The notes under the pieces are model-generated. The model was not told where the DNA came from and ran no database searches. It saw nothing but the letters and a program-made list of their open reading frames with translations. Shown in pieces: positions 6,986 to 52,576 of a stretch of DNA of 64,000 nucleotides. The stretch is from assembly GCF_900095385.1 (NCBI RefSeq), contig NZ_FMID01000017.1, positions 1-64,000 of the forward strand. The letters run 5' to 3'. How positions within the stretch are numbered: the stretch's first letter is position 1; every line of letters starts with the position of its first letter. The position numbers were made by a program, and so were the translations under genes. This DNA is from Methanoculleus chikugoensis (GTDB taxonomy: Archaea; Halobacteriota; Methanomicrobia; Methanomicrobiales; Methanoculleaceae).

Positions 6986-7166
6986 CCCCGTGCGATCGAG
7001 GGGCGCCGACCTCCGGCGACGATCCGGGAAGGGGGCGCTACCGCCCACAAAGCCGATCGTTCCAGTCAGGGCGGGCCCGAACCTCCATCCGCCGGCCACG
7101 GGGGCGGAGCGCGGCGCACTTATATCCCGGGAGCGACAAGAGTTTGATGATCACCAGGCCGAGACC

Positions 7167-7574
7167 ATGGATGCGAACATGCGGGAAGCAGGGCGGTGGC
7201 TGCGCCAGGGGGAGAGGGATCTCGTCAGCGCGAGGAACAGCTGCCGGTCCGGCGATTTTGAATGGGCATGCTTCCAGGCACAGCAGAGTGCAGAGAAAAC
7301 CCTGAAGGCCCTGCTCTATGCCCGGGGATACCGGAGGATCCTGACGCATTCTGTCTACGAACTGATCAGGGAGATCGGCGAGTACGAGCCCTCGTTCCTG
7401 GCGCTGAAGAGTGAGGCAAAGGCACTTGATGCCGCTTATATAACGACCCGATATCCGGACAGCATCGTGGGGAACCTGACACCATCGGAGTACTACGACC
7501 GGGAGGATGCCGAAGAATGCATCGAGCATGCGGATTCGATCTGCAGTGCCGCGAGAGAAGCGCTCGCCGGGTGA
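7167..7574 (+). CDS. HEPN-domain protein (module 1)
   Basis: A 135-residue all-helical HEPN protein: AGRWLRQGERDLVSARNS, FEWACFQAQQSAEKTLKALL, then a C-terminal TTRYPD segment. HEPN proteins paired with minimal nucleotidyltransferases are toxins, usually RNases. ATG 7167 follows a TATA-like CTTATATCC at 7119. It overlaps the nucleotidyltransferase start by one base (TGATG), so the two are translationally coupled. Confidence 0.88.
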   Translation: MDANMREAGRWLRQGERDLVSARNSCRSGDFEWACFQAQQSAEKTLKALLYARGYRRILTHSVYELIREIGEYEPSFLALKSEAKALDAAYITTRYPDSIVGNLTPSEYYDREDAEECIEHADSICSAAREALAG

Positions 7575-7865: not shown

Positions 7866-9041
7866 TCACGTGCAGACGATCTGCTCTTCTTCCGGCTCGC
7901 CTTCGAGATACTCGTGCGCCGAGAGCGCCGCCTTCGCCCCATCGCCGGCGGCGACGATGATCTGTTTGGCCTTGACGCAGGTCGCGTCCCCGGCCGCAAA
8001 GACCCCGGAAACGCTCGTATGACCGTTTTCGTCGATGACGATCTCACCCTGCTCGTTCAGCGCCACGAGATCCTTGAGAAACCCCGTATTCGGCGCAAGC
8101 CCGATCGCGAGGAAGAGCCCCTCCACGTCGAGATCCGTCTCCTCACCGGCCTCGCTGTCGCGGATCGTGATCCCGGTCAGGCCCGCGTCCCCGTGGAGCG
8201 CCGTCACCTCGTGGTGGGAGAAGGTCTGCACCCCCGCCTTCTCTGCCCGGTCAATGTAGACCTCGTCGCAGCGGAGAGACCTCCGGGCGATCAGGGCCAC
8301 CGAACTCGTGAACTTCGTCATCTCGATCGCGGTCTGAAGCGCTGCGTTCCCGCCGCCGACGACGGCTACCGGTTTACCACGATAGAGCGGGGCGTCGCAG
8401 ATGGCGCAGATCGAGACGCCCTTCCCCATCAGCCGATCCTCACCCGGGACCCCCAGTCTCCGGGGCTCCTTGCCCGGGGCGAGGATGAGCGTCCGGGAAC
8501 GGTAGACGGTTCCCGAGGCCGTCCGGACGAGGAACGCCTCATCCTCCTTGCGGACCTCCCCGACACTGTCGAGCTCGAGACGGACCTGGAACCCCCGGAC
8601 CTGCTCCTCGAACTTCCGGACCAGTTCCTCGCCCGAGATCGTCGAAAATCCCATATAGTTCTCGATGGTCCAGCTCCAGGCCGCCTGACCGCCGACGTTC
8701 TCCGCTATGACGACGGTCTTCATGAGTTTCCGGGCGCAATAGACCGCTGCCGTCAGCCCTGCCGGACCGGCGCCCACAATGATCGTGTCGTGGACGATCT
8801 CCTCCGGCGGCGTCCCGAAGAGCTCGCGGAGCCGCTTTGCATCAAACCCGACGACCACCTCGTCGCCAAAGACCGTGACCGGCACCCCCCGCTGCCCCGA
8901 GATCGCGATCATCTCGCGGGCCGCCTCGCGGTCCTTCCCGACGTCGACGATCTCAAACTCGACGTCGTGTTTCCGGAGGAACGCCTGAACCATCCGGCAG
9001 TACGGGCAGTTCTCCGTCGTGTAGACCTTAACGCCTGCCAT
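7866..9041 (-). CDS. Glutaredoxin-thioredoxin reductase fusion
   Basis: 391 residues. Residues 1-78 form a glutaredoxin-like domain (VYTTENCPYCRMV, catalytic CPYC; GVPVTV cis-proline). Residues from 84 form an NAD(P)H thioredoxin reductase: FAD-binding IIVGAGPAGLTAAVY, redox pair CAIC, nucleotide-binding VAVVGGGNAAL, and C-terminal FAAGDATC. The fusion would pass electrons from NAD(P)H through flavin to disulfides in one chain. ATG 9041 was chosen because a TTAAATAC box lies about 25 bp upstream, giving a leaderless transcript. It sits beside rubrerythrin in the redox cluster. Confidence 0.88.
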   Translation of the reverse strand: MAGVKVYTTENCPYCRMVQAFLRKHDVEFEIVDVGKDREAAREMIAISGQRGVPVTVFGDEVVVGFDAKRLRELFGTPPEEIVHDTIIVGAGPAGLTAAVYCARKLMKTVVIAENVGGQAAWSWTIENYMGFSTISGEELVRKFEEQVRGFQVRLELDSVGEVRKEDEAFLVRTASGTVYRSRTLILAPGKEPRRLGVPGEDRLMGKGVSICAICDAPLYRGKPVAVVGGGNAALQTAIEMTKFTSSVALIARRSLRCDEVYIDRAEKAGVQTFSHHEVTALHGDAGLTGITIRDSEAGEETDLDVEGLFLAIGLAPNTGFLKDLVALNEQGEIVIDENGHTSVSGVFAAGDATCVKAKQIIVAAGDGAKAALSAHEYLEGEPEEEQIVCT

Positions 9042-9131
9042 GTGAGGGAATATCTCGGGAAGAGTATTTAACTTACGGGGGTGCGGTGCAGGAACCCCGG
9101 CCACGGCGGCACCGAGCCGAAAAGAAAGAGA

Positions 9132-9632
9132 TTATTGGATTTCGCGGAACATCCGTGCCGGAACCCCGCAGATCGGGCACTTCTCCGGCGCCGCCCCGAT
9201 CTCGAGGTTGCCGCAGACCGGGCAGAGGAAGACCTTATCCGCATCGAGGTCTTTTCCTTCCCGGACGGCCTCGAGCGCCTGGAGGTAGAGGTTCGCGTGC
9301 ACCTCTTCCGCCTTCATCGCATGGGTGAAGACGATCGATGCCTCGTTCTTCCGCTCCTCCTTCGCCTCAGCGACGAACGGGGGGTACATCTCCATGAACT
9401 CGTAGTTCTCGCCCTCCATCGCGCTCTTCAGGTTCTCCTCGGTGCTCCCGACGGCGTTCAGGATGAAGAGAAGGCGTTTCGCGTGGACGGCTTCCGCTTC
9501 GCTTGCCGCACGGAAGAGTTTTGCCACCGCGGGATACCCTTCGGCGGCTGCCTTCTCTGCAAAGACCGAGTATTTTCTGTTCGCCTGGGACTCCCCGGCG
9601 TACGCATTCTGAGCGTTCTCATCTGTCGGCAT
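9132..9632 (-). CDS. Rubrerythrin
   Basis: A 166-residue peroxide-reducing protein. The ferritin-like diiron domain supplies glutamates from YAGESQANRKY, SEAEAVHAKRL and HAMKAEEVHANLY. The C-terminal rubredoxin-like knuckles are CPVCG and CPICG. A TAATA box about 26 bp upstream of ATG 9632 suggests a leaderless transcript. It belongs to the oxygen-defence cluster. Confidence 0.93.
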   Translation of the reverse strand: MPTDENAQNAYAGESQANRKYSVFAEKAAAEGYPAVAKLFRAASEAEAVHAKRLLFILNAVGSTEENLKSAMEGENYEFMEMYPPFVAEAKEERKNEASIVFTHAMKAEEVHANLYLQALEAVREGKDLDADKVFLCPVCGNLEIGAAPEKCPICGVPARMFREIQ

Positions 9633-46829: not shown

Positions 46830-47951
46830 TCACCCCCGAAGCCCCCGCACGAACCGCTCCCGGATCTCGGCCGGGGCGAGCGGGATATTCGGGACCGCGG
46901 CATTCCCCGGCTTCAGGACGACGTGAATGAAGTTCGGTCCCCGCCCCCGGTTCTCCCAGGCTTCGCCAAGCTCCCGCTCATCCTGCACCTTGCAGGTCTG
47001 CCGGATCCCGGCGGCACGGGCGAGGAGTTCCATGTCCACGAGCCCGGAGGCCGGGGTGGGCTGGTTCCCCGTGCTCCCGAAGGCCCCGTTGTCCAGGCAG
47101 ACGATCGTGAGGTTCTCCGGGGCCTCTGCCGCCACCACCGGGAGGGCGGCGGTCCCGAGAAGGCTCCCGTCGCCGTCGAGGACGACGATGTCTCTATCCG
47201 TCGCGATGGCAAGCCCGAGCCCGATCGGCGTCGCCTGGGTGTAACTCCCGAGCATGTAGAAGTTCAGGTCCCGGTCGCGAGCTGCGTAGAGCTCTTTTGA
47301 GGGGACCCCGATGTTCGCGACGACCGCCTCGCCGTCGAGGGCGGTAACAATCGCCCTTATCGCGTCGTTCCGGGTCATCACCGGCTCCCGAAAGGTTCGC
47401 CGGTACTCGATCACCGACTCGCGGGCCCGGGTCGGGAAGACCTGCTCCGGCAGGCAGGCCTCCTCCGTCCCCTCCCAGAACGAAGGGAGGATCAGTCCCA
47501 CGTGCGGCCGCATGGAGGCGTAGGCGTCCCGGACGACCTCATCGATCAACTCCTCATCCCCGGGTTCTCGGATGACGGTATACGGGATCCCGAGCGCCGC
47601 GAGGACCTCCGGGACCGCCCGGTTGAACGGTACCTGGGCCGGGATCGCCTCCCGGTAGACCCCCCGCCAGCTCGCGAGGATCGGGAGGGGGAGGCCGAAG
47701 GTGACGGTGAGGGACATGATGGCATTCAAAGAGTTCCCGAGCCCCGAACTCTGCATGTGGAGCACCGGCCGCCCCCCGGCCATCGCGAGCCCGGCGCAGA
47801 TCCCGACGCCGTCCTCCTCCCGGGTGAGGTTCACGGAACGGAACCGCTCCGGGATGAGGGCGCAGAACTCCTGCGTCCGGTCGCAGGGAAGACTCGCGAC
47901 GGTATCGACCCCGAGAGCGGAGAGGCGGTCGAGGACGGATCCTTCACGCAC
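46830..47951 (-). CDS. comDE: Sulfopyruvate decarboxylase (fused ComDE)
   Basis: 373 residues combining the alpha part (1-165, VASLPCDRTQEF, REEDGVGICAGLAMAGGRP) and the beta part with the thiamine diphosphate motif LDGDGSLLGTAALPV and CLDN. It converts sulfopyruvate to sulfoacetaldehyde in coenzyme M synthesis. Start is GTG 47951, 8 bp inside the cysteate synthase gene. Last gene of the operon. Confidence 0.9.
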   Translation of the reverse strand: MREGSVLDRLSALGVDTVASLPCDRTQEFCALIPERFRSVNLTREEDGVGICAGLAMAGGRPVLHMQSSGLGNSLNAIMSLTVTFGLPLPILASWRGVYREAIPAQVPFNRAVPEVLAALGIPYTVIREPGDEELIDEVVRDAYASMRPHVGLILPSFWEGTEEACLPEQVFPTRARESVIEYRRTFREPVMTRNDAIRAIVTALDGEAVVANIGVPSKELYAARDRDLNFYMLGSYTQATPIGLGLAIATDRDIVVLDGDGSLLGTAALPVVAAEAPENLTIVCLDNGAFGSTGNQPTPASGLVDMELLARAAGIRQTCKVQDERELGEAWENRGRGPNFIHVVLKPGNAAVPNIPLAPAEIRERFVRGLRG

Positions 47952-49236
47952 GGACCGCCACCCCCTGCTCGGCGAGCCAGTCTCTGACGGCGTCCCGCAC
48001 ATCCCCCGCGAAGGCCTCGCCGGCCCGGACCCGGAGGGAGGGCTCGACCGGGTAGCGGTCGAGGTCTTCTGCCGCACGCTGATACCCCCCGCCGGTCACG
48101 TTCAGGAGGATGTGGTCATCCGGACCGACGAGCCCCTCCCCCACCGCCCGGACGAGCGAGGCGACCGCGACCGCGGCGGCCGGGTCGAGGTCGATCTCCT
48201 CCGTCTCCGTAAATAGCCTCCCGGCACTCCGGGCGTCGTCGTTAGCGACCGCATACATCCGGCCGCCGGAGGCCGCGAGGGCGTCGTAGACCCCGCCCCG
48301 GATCCCCCAGGGAGGGTGGCGGTTCGTCAGGACGTCGGCGGAGACCCGGGCGATAGAGACCTCGGTATCGGGCATATCCACTTCAGGAACGATCTCCCGC
48401 CGTCCCGCCTCCCAGGCCCGGACCATCGGGACGAAGGGGAGGTTCTGGGAGAGGTGGAGAGCCGGGAGGCGGGTGCCGAACCGGCCGTCGGCGATGAGCC
48501 GCTCCGCCGCTTCCCACGCGGCGATCCCCCCGGTCCCGCTCCCTACCGCCTGGAAGTAGCAGTCGGGGAGCCGCCCGGCAGAGAGTGCCCCGTCGAGCAC
48601 CACCGTTCCCATCCCGTCCCGCCGGGCGACGTTCTTCGCCCCGCCCCCCGGAACGATCCCGGGCAGCGTGCAGACCTCCCGCCCGAACGCGATGGAGTCG
48701 GAGTAGTCCCCGTCCACCGTGATGAGGCAGACGTTCGGGGCCTCGACGGTTGTCCAGAGCCGACCGGCGGCGGCCGCCGGGACCACCACCACGACCGGTG
48801 CCCCGGTCAGGCCCGAGACCTGGCAGAAGGCCCGGCCGGTGTTCCCCGCCGACGAGACCTGGAGGACGCCGGCACCCTTCTCCCGGAGGCGGAGAACCGT
48901 CGGCTGCGCCTCGAGCTCCTTGAAGGAGCAGGTCTCCATCCGCCCGCCCCGCTCGGGCCAGTAGCCCGAGAAGGTGACGGTGAGGTGGGAGAGTCCGAGT
49001 TCCCGGGCGAGGCCGGCACTCTCGTAGGAGACCGGGCCGGCGTCAAGCCGGAGGTGGCCCTCGATGGGGAGCCACCCCGTGTAGCGAAAGACCCCCGGGA
49101 GGTTCCGGAGGGTGAGGCGGCGATTGGCGTAGACCGTCCGGAGGAGGGCGTCGCACCCCGAGGGGCAGTCGAGGGTGTAGCGGTCGGGGAACGACCGGCC
49201 GCACCCCGGGCAGTGGATGAGGTACTTCTCCCTCAC
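47944..49236 (-). CDS. Cysteate synthase
   Basis: 430 residues of the threonine synthase-like PLP fold. The N-terminal zinc-knuckle-like CPGCGRSF and CPSGC, the probable PLP lysine in METCSFKELEA, the glycine-rich SSAGNTGRAF and the phosphate-binding VGSGTGGIAAW are visible. It makes L-cysteate from phosphoserine and sulfite, the first step of this coenzyme M route. The gene directly precedes comDE, which excludes ordinary threonine synthase. Confidence 0.88.
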   Translation of the reverse strand: MREKYLIHCPGCGRSFPDRYTLDCPSGCDALLRTVYANRRLTLRNLPGVFRYTGWLPIEGHLRLDAGPVSYESAGLARELGLSHLTVTFSGYWPERGGRMETCSFKELEAQPTVLRLREKGAGVLQVSSAGNTGRAFCQVSGLTGAPVVVVVPAAAAGRLWTTVEAPNVCLITVDGDYSDSIAFGREVCTLPGIVPGGGAKNVARRDGMGTVVLDGALSAGRLPDCYFQAVGSGTGGIAAWEAAERLIADGRFGTRLPALHLSQNLPFVPMVRAWEAGRREIVPEVDMPDTEVSIARVSADVLTNRHPPWGIRGGVYDALAASGGRMYAVANDDARSAGRLFTETEEIDLDPAAAVAVASLVRAVGEGLVGPDDHILLNVTGGGYQRAAEDLDRYPVEPSLRVRAGEAFAGDVRDAVRDWLAEQGVAVRA

Positions 49237-50474
49237 CGCCCCCCGCCTCCGGTGAAGGTGAAACGGAAATCGAGGACCATCTCTTTTAAGTCCCGACAGA
49301 GGTCTTCGGCAAGCGTCCGGCCGGACTGGCGCAGCGTGATCGGCACCTTCCTTCCCCGGACCCGGAGCGACCCCTCGCCGGCCTCAAGCGCGTCGTTCGG
49401 GCAGGCGGCAAGGCAGGCGGTGCAGGCGAGGCAGCGGTCGCGGTCGATCCCGGTCTCGCGGGCAAACGCGCCCGTCGGGCAGATTGCGGCCGCGGCACAG
49501 GCCGAACATTCCTCGCACCACTCGGAATGGTAGGTCACCTCCCTATCGGGCCGCTGCCAGAGATCGGCGTAGGTCGCCGTATCAAGGACGTTGCGGGTGT
49601 TGATATCGGCGACCGGAAGGGGGATCTCCTCGTCGAGGACGCGGAGGGCCGCGATCTGCCGGTCGTCGAGGACCGGGATCGCGACGCCGAGGCTCGTGAT
49701 GCACTCGGGGCCTGCAGAGGTCCTGAATCCGCCCATGTAGCGGGGCTGCATCCCGGCCATATCGGCGATGACCGTGAGGTTCGGCCGCGAAGGAGTGCTC
49801 CGGGTCCCCTCCCCGGTCACCAGCCCGGCCGAACCGTTCAGGAGAACCGGCGTCCCATCCCGGATCGCGAGTCGTGCGGGGTCGTTCTGGAGGGGATTGA
49901 TCTCGCCGCACCCGCTGACCGAGACCTCCCGGCAGGGTCCCTCGAGCCCCGTGACGGAGAAGATCGTCGTCACCCGGGTCGGCCGGGTGTTGAGGTAGGC
50001 GGTGTAGTTTTTGTAGGCGCTCCGGGTGGTGAAGATCCGGGCGTAGGCGAGGTCGTCGATGGTCACCCGCGCCTCGATCGAGCGGTCGGCGGCCTCCACC
50101 AGCACCTCGATCTCCCGGCCCTCGACGATATCGCGGAAGAGGTGGCCGCCCCCGTAGCCCGCCCCGGCGTGGGCGGTTCCGGAGACGATCAGGTCGACGA
50201 GCCCGAGGCGCTCGTTCGGGCAGGGGCCGGGCATGCAGGGGACACCGTTCAGCCAGGCCCGATCCGCCCGCTCGAACTCTCCCGGCGCCGCCACCGGGAC
50301 CGAGAGGATCGCCGCGGTCCCCGACATCACCCCGCAGGTTCCCGTGGTGACCACGTCGACGTCGGCGGCCGTGACCTCCACACCCTCGCGGACGAGGCGC
50401 TTGAACTCCGCGGCCGTGTAGACGACCACCGAACCGTTCCGGATCTTCTCGTCGATCTCTGTTATCGTCTTCAT
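49233..50474 (-). CDS. Methanogenesis marker 16 metalloprotein (DUF39/COG1900 plus ferredoxin domain)
   Basis: 413 residues. The DUF39 part (1-320) has TTGTCGVMSGTAAIL, PCMPGPCPNERLG and VSGCGEINPL. The C-terminal part carries two ferredoxin clusters (CEECSACAAAAICP, CLACTACLAACP). COG1900 proteins make homocysteine from aspartate semialdehyde by sulfur transfer. Beside cysteate synthase and ComDE, the parallel reaction on sulfoacetaldehyde to give coenzyme M is an attractive role, by inference. It overlaps both neighbours by ATGA. Confidence 0.88.
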   Translation of the reverse strand: MKTITEIDEKIRNGSVVVYTAAEFKRLVREGVEVTAADVDVVTTGTCGVMSGTAAILSVPVAAPGEFERADRAWLNGVPCMPGPCPNERLGLVDLIVSGTAHAGAGYGGGHLFRDIVEGREIEVLVEAADRSIEARVTIDDLAYARIFTTRSAYKNYTAYLNTRPTRVTTIFSVTGLEGPCREVSVSGCGEINPLQNDPARLAIRDGTPVLLNGSAGLVTGEGTRSTPSRPNLTVIADMAGMQPRYMGGFRTSAGPECITSLGVAIPVLDDRQIAALRVLDEEIPLPVADINTRNVLDTATYADLWQRPDREVTYHSEWCEECSACAAAAICPTGAFARETGIDRDRCLACTACLAACPNDALEAGEGSLRVRGRKVPITLRQSGRTLAEDLCRDLKEMVLDFRFTFTGGGGR

Positions 50475-51088
50475 AACCTGATATCCTCCACCCGCACATG
50501 GAGACCCGGGGACTGTGCGAGAATCATATTCACGACACCCGTGTGCGTAAGGTTCATCATGCAGTAGCCGGGCAGAAACCGCTGCCGCATCCCGAAGACG
50601 GGTTCGCGCCGCACCGTCCGGGCAATCCCCTCGAAACCGACGATGTGGTACGCCTCAACGTCCTTAAATTCTCCGCCCCGCGATACTTCCGGCCCGACGA
50701 CCAGGCAGGTGAGGAGGCCGCTCACCGGGCTGGCGTGAAGGACCGAGAGGACGTGCTGGACCGGGCAGCCCGCACCGGCCGGCCTCCCGACGACGATATC
50801 CCCGGCCGCGATCCCCCACTTCTCCACCAGGTCCGGCCGGAAGGGGAGGATGATCTTCCGGGCCGAGACCTCGCCGGGGAGGGGATCGAGGACGAAGTCG
50901 TACTCGCCGCCGAGAATGTCCCGGCCGGAACGGAGGACCTCGCCATCGAACCGGGGGGCTGCATTCCCCGCGTGGTAGAAGACGCAGTCCCCGAGTTCCT
51001 TCTCCCCCCGACGGACCCGCTCGAGAAACGCTTCGCAGGTCGGGGCGCCGCAGGCCCCGCAGTCCCTCCCCGGCGGTTGCCATGCCAC
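50471..51088 (-). CDS. 4Fe-4S protein of the coenzyme M operon
   Basis: 205 residues. The N-terminal motif DCGACGAPTCEAFLE with a later cysteine (GDCVFYH) binds a 4Fe-4S cluster as in corrinoid/acetyl-CoA synthase-like subunits. The rest has VVGRPAGAGCPVQHVLSVLH and GLLTCLVVGPE. GTG 51088 was chosen because it lies 4 bp after the GTPase stop. Exact function unknown; probably a maturation or electron-supply factor. Confidence 0.75.
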   Translation of the reverse strand: MAWQPPGRDCGACGAPTCEAFLERVRRGEKELGDCVFYHAGNAAPRFDGEVLRSGRDILGGEYDFVLDPLPGEVSARKIILPFRPDLVEKWGIAAGDIVVGRPAGAGCPVQHVLSVLHASPVSGLLTCLVVGPEVSRGGEFKDVEAYHIVGFEGIARTVRREPVFGMRQRFLPGYCMMNLTHTGVVNMILAQSPGLHVRVEDIRL

Positions 51089-51092
51089 CGTG

Positions 51093-51800
51093 CTAGTCCC
51101 CCCGGAAGAGATAGTCGGCATCCTCGAGCCTCCGGACGACCCCGAAGTGATGCTGCCACCCGATCTCGGTCTTCCCGATGCAGACGGTGCAGACCCCGAG
51201 CGGCGGCGCACACCGGAGGACGATTGTATCGGGATCGGTTATCTGCGGATATTCTTCGATCGCCCTGAGGAGGTAGCGCATCCCGGTCCCCTGGACGGCG
51301 TTCGTCTCGACGATATCGAGGTCAGGGTTCACCTCCCGGATCCGCTCCCGGAAGACCTCTTTTTCGGCCTGGGAGACGAGGTCGATCCGGGTCACGACCG
51401 CGATATCGGCGAGCGCCAGCATCGCGGCCATCTTCAGGGGCGTGTTCGTGCCGGAGACCGCGGAGAGGACAACGATCCCGAGCCCCTGCGTCGTGTAGGG
51501 GGAACAGCGGAGGCAGAGCCCGGCGCTCTCGACCAGGAGGAGGTCGGCGCCCTCCCCTTCGGCCCAGGCGACGGCGTCCCGCATCACCATCACCCCGGCG
51601 TGGTCCGGGCAGAGATCACCGGAGCAGACCTTCCGCGCCGGGATCCCGAACTCGGCCGCGAGCTCCTCGTCCTCGAACGCCCGGACGACGTCAATTTTCA
51701 AGTAGGCGATCCGGTGCCGGTCCAGGAGAGAGCGGATGGTCTGCCGAACGACAGCGGTCTTCCCGGCGGACGGCGGACCGGCAACGACGGCGAGCCTCAT
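51093..51800 (-). CDS. HypB/CobW-like GTPase
   Basis: 235 residues with P-loop GPPSAGKTAVV near residue 8, LLVESAGL as switch, and specificity-like TRIDLV. Extra cysteine pairs (CSGDLC, CLRC, CTVC) could bind metal. Such GTPases load metals into enzymes. It overlaps the ABC ATPase gene upstream by ATGA. Confidence 0.8.
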   Translation of the reverse strand: MRLAVVAGPPSAGKTAVVRQTIRSLLDRHRIAYLKIDVVRAFEDEELAAEFGIPARKVCSGDLCPDHAGVMVMRDAVAWAEGEGADLLLVESAGLCLRCSPYTTQGLGIVVLSAVSGTNTPLKMAAMLALADIAVVTRIDLVSQAEKEVFRERIREVNPDLDIVETNAVQGTGMRYLLRAIEEYPQITDPDTIVLRCAPPLGVCTVCIGKTEIGWQHHFGVVRRLEDADYLFRGD

Positions 51801-52576
51801 GCCCCGACCGGTCCCGTGATCAGGTTTCCGGCCCGGATCTCCTCCCGCATCCGGCGGAGGATGCCGTCGAGGCGGAGAGCCTCCCGGAGAGCCTCGTTCT
51901 CGCGATCCAGCGGCTCGATCACCCGCTCGACCCCCCCGTCCCGCATGACGATCCGCCGGGCGGAGAGGAGGGAGACCAGGGGATCGTGCGTGACGAAGAT
52001 GACCGCCTTCCCCCCGGCCCGGAGGACCTCGATCACCCGCTCCTTGAAGATTCCGGCGTTCTCCACCTCGTCGAGGAGGAGGACCGGTGCCGCAGCGATG
52101 AGGACCGCGTCCGCCACGAGAAGCGACCGGGTCTGCCCCCCGGAGAGCGCGGTCATCCGGGCACCGGCCCGGATCTCTTCACCCGTAAACTCGTTTGCGA
52201 GGGCGATCGTTCTCTCGACGATCCCGTCGTCGGCGATCTTGCGGGACCGGACGTGCATCGCAAGGAACTCTGCAACCGTAAGATCGGCGAGGCACCGGGT
52301 GTTCTGGGTGATCAGGGCGACGGGTTTATAGGCCGGGTCGCGGACGAACTCTTCGGGAGGGAATTCGCCGTTGACGAGGACCGTACGCCCCGTCGCGGTG
52401 TCGTTCCGGGCGAAGACCTCGATATCGTTGATGAGGGCGCTCTTTCCCGAACCGGTGGGGCCGACTATGGATATTGTGTCGCCCGGGCGGATGCTGATGG
52501 CCTCGAACCGCTCCGGCGCGCCACGCCGGTTCCGGCCGGGTAGGATCGTGATCTCCCGGGTGGGTGAGGTGTCCAT
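51797..52576 (-). CDS. ABC-type ATPase without a permease
   Basis: 259 residues: Walker A VGPTGSGKSALIND, signature ALSGGQTRSL, Walker B VLLLDEVENAG, and H-loop FVTHD. There is no membrane partner in the window. Together with the GTPase and the Fe-S protein it probably forms an energy-driven maturation system for the operon's enzymes; this is inference. First gene of the operon. Confidence 0.82.
   Translation of the reverse strand: MDTSPTREITILPGRNRRGAPERFEAISIRPGDTISIVGPTGSGKSALINDIEVFARNDTATGRTVLVNGEFPPEEFVRDPAYKPVALITQNTRCLADLTVAEFLAMHVRSRKIADDGIVERTIALANEFTGEEIRAGARMTALSGGQTRSLLVADAVLIAAAPVLLLDEVENAGIFKERVIEVLRAGGKAVIFVTHDPLVSLLSARRIVMRDGGVERVIEPLDRENEALREALRLDGILRRMREEIRAGNLITGPVGA

Follow-up and report, generated by a model that had tools for sequence, protein, structure and literature searches.

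What do a soluble ATP-binding cassette (ABC) ATPase, a GTPase and an iron-sulfur (FeS) protein contribute to an operon for the synthesis of coenzyme M (CoM)? The question was raised by a 64,000-nucleotide stretch of Methanoculleus chikugoensis DNA (contig NZ_FMID01000017.1, assembly GCF_900095385.1; here called the window), in which six nearly touching genes occupied positions 46830-52576 of the minus strand in the order ABC ATPase, GTPase, FeS protein, methanogenesis marker 16, cysteate synthase and ComDE. The ABC and GTPase genes overlapped by 4 nt, as did the marker 16 gene with the FeS gene before it and with the cysteate synthase gene after it. CoM is essential for biological methane. In the cysteate route, cysteate synthase converts phosphoserine and sulfite to cysteate, a general transaminase and ComDE lead on to sulfoacetaldehyde, and marker 16 (ComF) performs the last step to CoM. 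Cysteate synthase, ComDE and marker 16 of the window all scored above curated cut-offs; judged by these matches, the operon makes CoM by this known route. A sequence-only reading of the window had described the six genes as overlapping or nearly touching in one operon, and gene calls and family matches confirmed this. The same order recurred in many genomes, showing that the arrangement is far beyond chance.

The sequence-only reading had also named marker 16 as the candidate for the last CoM enzyme. This was correct, but the genetics had been published in 2025. By deletion in Methanosarcina acetivorans, Chadwick et al. (PMC12068725) identified marker 16 as the primary CoM synthase, for which another route can stand in under some conditions; the mutant had a CoM-dependent growth defect and was a CoM auxotroph without sulfide. 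The marker 16 protein of Methanocaldococcus jannaschii is cited there as working in Escherichia coli from a plasmid. The legend of Fig 2 in that paper states that the ATPase, a Ni-binding GTPase and a COG2000 Fe-S protein often colocalised with CoM genes and that their role was unknown. Because the CoM synthase was already published, only these three genes, hereafter the triad, were left open.

We found that the triad is separate from marker 16 and associated with sulfite-using sulfonate synthesis, both of which are new here. It is well supported as a separate, mobile ABC-GTPase-FeS module that crosses the domain boundary and has a form with a NifS-type desulfurase, also new here. Named genomes were scanned with a profile made from a GTPase alignment; at least 579 loci matched, and the 80 best of them were examined. 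The ABC gene lay directly upstream of the GTPase gene in all 80 of these loci; the GTPase was followed by the FeS gene in 61/80, by NifS and then FeS in 17/80, and by the contig end in 2/80. By record title, 44 of the 80 loci were bacterial, two apparently mis-binned ones being left out. The carriers included Heliobacteria and other clostridia, Omnitrophota, Bacteroidota, Acidobacteriota, Chloroflexota, and relatives of Gallionella and Burkholderiales. In bacteria the operon often consisted of an Rrf2 regulator, ABC, GTPase, NifS and FeS, and the desulfurase matched TIGR03402 at 463 bits, under its cut-off of 531. One archaeal family also had the NifS form (L109), and no cysteine desulfurase was present in the window operon. 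Three records titled Bacilli (L136), Nitrospirae (L142) and Nanohalarchaeota (L132) carried methanogen-type CoM operons and look mis-binned. A plasmid search returned a single distant match, at 39% identity, in Fusobacterium.

The ABC ATPase had a Walker A (GPTGSGKS), a signature (LSGGQ) and a Walker B (LLLDEVENAG), conserved in alignment A1, and no permease partner was found in the window operon, nor did one recur next to the triad across the loci read. In the GTPase, CPDH (64-67), CxRC (96-99), C204xxC207 and H218 were invariant in 117 sequences. The FeS protein (residues numbered on a 216-residue frame beginning at 51121) had an N-terminal four-cysteine FeS motif, C21, C24, C29 and C46, and an all-beta C-terminal domain with C119, H123, C187 and H193, all eight being invariant in 114/114 sequences. 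Its predicted structure had a predicted local distance difference test score (pLDDT) of 82 for the whole protein and 94.5 for the C-terminal domain. Foldseek searches of the PDB with the whole protein and with the C-terminal domain modelled alone gave no match at E<0.001, and the sequence of that domain retrieved nothing useful from PDB or Pfam. The barrel of the A-type ATP synthase B subunit was considered as a relative (VIA-align Z 5.6 over 64 residues, root-mean-square deviation 2.5) and set aside as a common beta-barrel arrangement.

The triad had been read as the maturation or energy-supply system of marker 16, for instance giving reducing power for thiol insertion. This view draws on the single operon with the same order in Methanomicrobiales, on three Methanosarcina-type loci (L141-L143) in which the triad and marker 16 occur without cysteate synthase beside them, and on a locus (L169) from anaerobic methanotrophic archaea (ANME) in which the triad faces marker 16. 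Counted as strong matches in 148 archaeal genomes of the window's phylum (genome counts here are not corrected for kinship), the full-length FeS gene was present in 34, nearly always behind GTPase and ABC genes, and marker 16 co-occurred with the triad in 31/34 triad genomes vs 38/114 others (p=1e-9). However, the two parted in both directions. Marker 16 over its cut-off and ComE were found without the triad in 33 of the 148 genomes. Conversely, three archaeal genomes, including the single-contig whole genome G056, had the triad without marker 16. Methanoregula-type operons (L104, L125, L128, L134) held the triad, cysteate synthase and ComDE with marker 16 missing; the triad stood directly before cysteate synthase in these and in one Methanogenium locus. 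Where marker 16 was gone, L122 included, the triad stayed beside cysteate synthase. No text was found on whether Methanoregula boonei needs CoM. Among 37 bacterial triad genomes, 28 had no match to COG1900 (PF01837), the family of marker 16; a role of the triad across COG1900 was ruled out, since only 9/37 carried such a gene. In one archaeal genus the FeS gene had in-frame nonsense codons, which differed between two genomes (L017 ~1626 and L110 ~4900; TAG and TGA), and the better genome, G011, kept marker 16 and ComE. The triad is dispensable for marker 16, and marker 16 maturation was rejected as its main role.

In G003, a single-contig genome of the window's own genus, the GTPase breaks off after residue ~108 and continues in frame as the C-terminal part of ComE (L103, G003:C1:613878-614516) and the ABC gene was frameshifted; no full match to marker 16 or the FeS gene was found in this genome. 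Despite the operon deletion, L103 retained the neighbouring HTH_3-type regulator at 94% identity. These remains represent a natural deletion scar, and G003 is likely a CoM auxotroph within the genus. The triad was not kept in this lineage once the pathway was gone, which fits a dedicated role there, but one deletion may simply have taken the triad along.

Sulfonate synthesis is the best-supported partner of the triad. In the 148 archaeal genomes, ComE was found in 33/34 triad genomes vs 42/114 others (p=6e-11). Within one clostridial phylum of 199 genomes, ComA accompanied the triad in 16/17 genomes vs 60/182 others (p=8e-7); by contrast, genomes of that phylum with only a paralogous GTPase showed no ComA link (2/12, p=0.14). 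Pfam-confirmed ComA (L151) and ComA-ComB (L149) lay directly upstream of clostridial triads, and ComA was also upstream in G362, placed there by coordinates. In the GTPase tree the clostridial, ComA-type triads stood beside those of Methanomicrobiales. CoM-adjacent triads occupied three places in the tree: Methanomicrobiales, Methanosarcinaceae (beside comD-comE) and the ANME locus, beside marker 16. Because the tree was quick and some branches were long, independent recruitments cannot be counted exactly from it. The sequence-only reading had named a triad found mostly in genomes lacking the pathway as refuting it, and this was largely the case: none of the 37 bacterial carriers passed the ComE cut-off. 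The nearest was G175, at 219 vs 221.5 bits, with ComA nearby. This deltaproteobacterial genome had a NifS-form triad (L179) and a COG1900 gene, and on another contig than the triad, C258, a ComE-like gene (6994-7524) and ComA (8707-9429) lay close together; a bacterial CoM or sulfoacetaldehyde pathway is possible in G175, judging from these genes.

Several other genes lay near triads. An SsuA-type sulfonate-binding protein (TIGR01728 at 77.8 bits, below cut-off) was seen in the archaeal loci L104 (2101-3042), L110 (1808-2767), L109 (10060-10989), L128 and L134, with no permease noted beside it. In L110 (5745-7940) a LarE-type sacrificial sulfur transferase and a radical S-adenosylmethionine (SAM) protein adjoined the triad; in L142 and L143 a member of the same radical SAM family is encoded upstream of the triad.

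Cysteate synthase and ComA both take sulfite as substrate (reactions: PMC12713407, PMC3087415). A survey of ANME and methanogens (PMC6286981) described it as unclear where sulfite comes from in situ and cited a backwards-run sulfite reductase as a proposal. With sulfite common to both enzymes and its source unclear, we propose the triad as a preparatory system for sulfonate formation, one that readies sulfur in the form of sulfite or a precursor of it. Taken as a whole this is our favoured reading, held tentatively and at somewhat less than even probability. The GTPase and ATPase would load and energise the FeS/Cys-His protein; that protein would handle sulfur from sulfide in methanogens or from cysteine persulfide in the NifS form, and the sulfur would be delivered as sulfite or a precursor to the sulfite-consuming step, namely cysteate synthase in these archaea and ComA in clostridia. 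Three parts of this scheme are inferred: the loading with metal, the handling of sulfur, and the identity of the product as sulfite. A narrower version, in which the triad (with NifS in bacteria) would be a hitherto unrecognised machine, driven by nucleotides, that turns sulfide or persulfide into sulfite or a bound precursor of it without oxygen, seems rather unlikely; if true, it would explain where anaerobes get sulfite for CoM and sulfolactate.

If the triad supplies sulfite, sulfate activation should tend to be missing from ComA genomes that carry it. Among ComA genomes, ATP sulfurylase was found in 1/16 with the triad vs 28/60 without it (p=0.003), and these counts give suggestive support, short of proof, for a sulfur-preparing role. 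Other results weigh against that role. When CysD/CysH-like genes were added, the counts became 4/16 vs 33/60 (p=0.048), a borderline value that weakens the test. ComA was missing in 24/37 bacterial carriers, many of them Omnitrophota, Chloroflexota, Acidobacteriota and the Gallionella group, indicating that the sulfonate link is not general; the carriers without ComA or ComE, which comprised most of the sampled members of these four groups, indicate at least one other use of the module. The 33 archaeal genomes with marker 16 and ComE but no triad count here too. The C-terminal domain of the FeS protein had no confident structural relative, so that no catalytic chemistry is established. Finally, the paralogous GTPase-ABC pair had as neighbours either DUF364/DUF4213 proteins of the "heavy-metal chelation" kind or ABC transporters of the metal type.

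This last result points towards metal and away from sulfur handling. In a metal-trafficking module the Cys2-His2 site of the FeS protein, or some other enzyme, would receive nickel, cobalt or iron from the GTPase and ABC ATPase, and the place beside sulfonate genes would reflect a metalloenzyme not yet known. We regard this as unlikely, though the likeliest of the alternatives. The closest PDB structures to the GTPase are HypB and UreG, its Cys/His residues lie near the HypB metal ligands, and its CPDH, CxRC, CxxC and histidine are invariant. However, in the bacterial loci listed the conserved neighbours of the triad included NifS and Rrf2 but no metal transporter or nickel enzyme, and the paralogous pair was without the triad's ComA association. 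The window's own genome carries a second GTPase-ABC pair (L105, G000:C10:1563-4052) whose ABC protein has an extra N-terminal domain; downstream of the pair lie genes for a heavy-metal chelation protein (DUF4213/DUF364) and for FecCD-like transporters, and a related class occurs in other archaea and clostridia.

Accessory Fe-S cluster assembly, like SUF, ISC or NIF with another ATPase and scaffold, would place the triad in CoM operons because marker 16 is an Fe-S protein. The NifS-type desulfurase and the Rrf2 (IscR/CymR-like) regulator of the bacterial operon point this way, as does the FeS motif of the third protein. Against it, the operon genes read by eye, in a subset of loci, included no IscU/NifU- or SufBD-type scaffold, and 33 genomes keep marker 16 and ComE without the triad. 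To our knowledge, cysteate synthase and ComA, both neighbours of the triad, are not Fe-S enzymes, which further argues against it. An IscU-like gene was present some kilobases from the L109 triad. We consider Fe-S assembly improbable. A helper of marker 16 is very unlikely, given the separations described above and the reported function of the M. jannaschii protein in E. coli (PMC12068725).

A module that tracks sulfonate synthesis in archaea and clostridia is a concrete candidate for the origin of the CoM sulfonate sulfur. Even if its product is not sulfite, the ATPase-GTPase-FeS(-NifS) system is widespread, and the libraries and papers searched gave no function for it; the literature search on an ATPase-GTPase-desulfurase cluster found nothing relevant.

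Features of the window are listed in the table. The closest named relatives of the window GTPase were from Methanoculleus. Homologues indicate a likely GTG start at 51088 for the FeS gene, whose open reading frame is open from 51211, and most likely a GTG start at 47951 for ComDE, open from 48077. The divergent HTH_3-type regulator was found at the same place in L112-L121, L123, L124, L126, L128, L130, L132, L134, L137 and L138; being conserved beside the triad in Methanomicrobiales, it is a candidate regulator of the operon.

Table. Genes of the CoM operon and its divergent neighbour in the window.
Feature	Position	Strand	Family match
Soluble ABC-type ATPase, 259 aa, triad gene 1	51797..52576	-	PF00005 (ABC_tran) 50 bits
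HypB/UreG-like GTPase, 235 aa, triad gene 2	51093..51800	-	PF02492 (CobW/HypB/UreG) 50 bits
FeS protein, triad gene 3 (COG2000 in PMC12068725)	50471..51088	-	PF04060 44 bits
Methanogenesis marker 16, CoM synthase ComF, 413 aa	49233..50474	-	TIGR03287 498.6 bits, cut-off 364
Cysteate synthase, 430 aa	47944..49236	-	TIGR03844 663 bits, cut-off 325
Sulfopyruvate decarboxylase, fused ComD-ComE	46830..47951	-	TIGR03845 213 bits, TIGR03846 249 bits, both above cut-off
Divergent HTH_3-type regulator, 161 aa	52680..53165	+	PF01381 37 bits

Compared with known systems, the window GTPase shares the CobW/HypB/UreG domain (cut-off for PF02492, 20.7 bits) and fell under the HypB equivalog cut-off (TIGR00073, 71 bits vs 121.2); its nearest solved structures were PDB 4hi0, 2wsm and 2hf8. 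C64 lies near the KECH of the HypB metal site and C96/C99 near NLICP, but the spacing differs (CPDH, CxRC). Unlike HypB and UreG, the triad GTPase adds a C-terminal CxxC/H, has its P-loop almost at the N-terminus, and is partnered by an ABC ATPase and an FeS protein. The bacterial form resembles NIF, ISC and SUF in its NifS-type desulfurase and Rrf2-type regulator, and its soluble ABC ATPase resembles SufC. However, in the operons read the triad has a GTPase and a COG2000 protein instead of a scaffold of the IscU/NifU/SufBD type, and the window form is without NifS. The N-terminal four-cysteine motif of the FeS protein matched the large subunit of the corrinoid/iron-sulfur protein (4djd chain C, 34.7 bits), but the match was limited to the first ~45 residues, the rest being a different all-beta domain. 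The published CoM biosynthesis gene cluster has the same genes as the window operon; the passages of PMC12068725 covered contain no bacterial distribution of the triad, NifS form or ComA link. The ComA-ComB sulfolactate pathway uses sulfite as cysteate synthase does, and in some clostridia the triad directly follows ComA or ComA-ComB. ComA-ComB is not in the window operon, where cysteate synthase fills the sulfite-using role.

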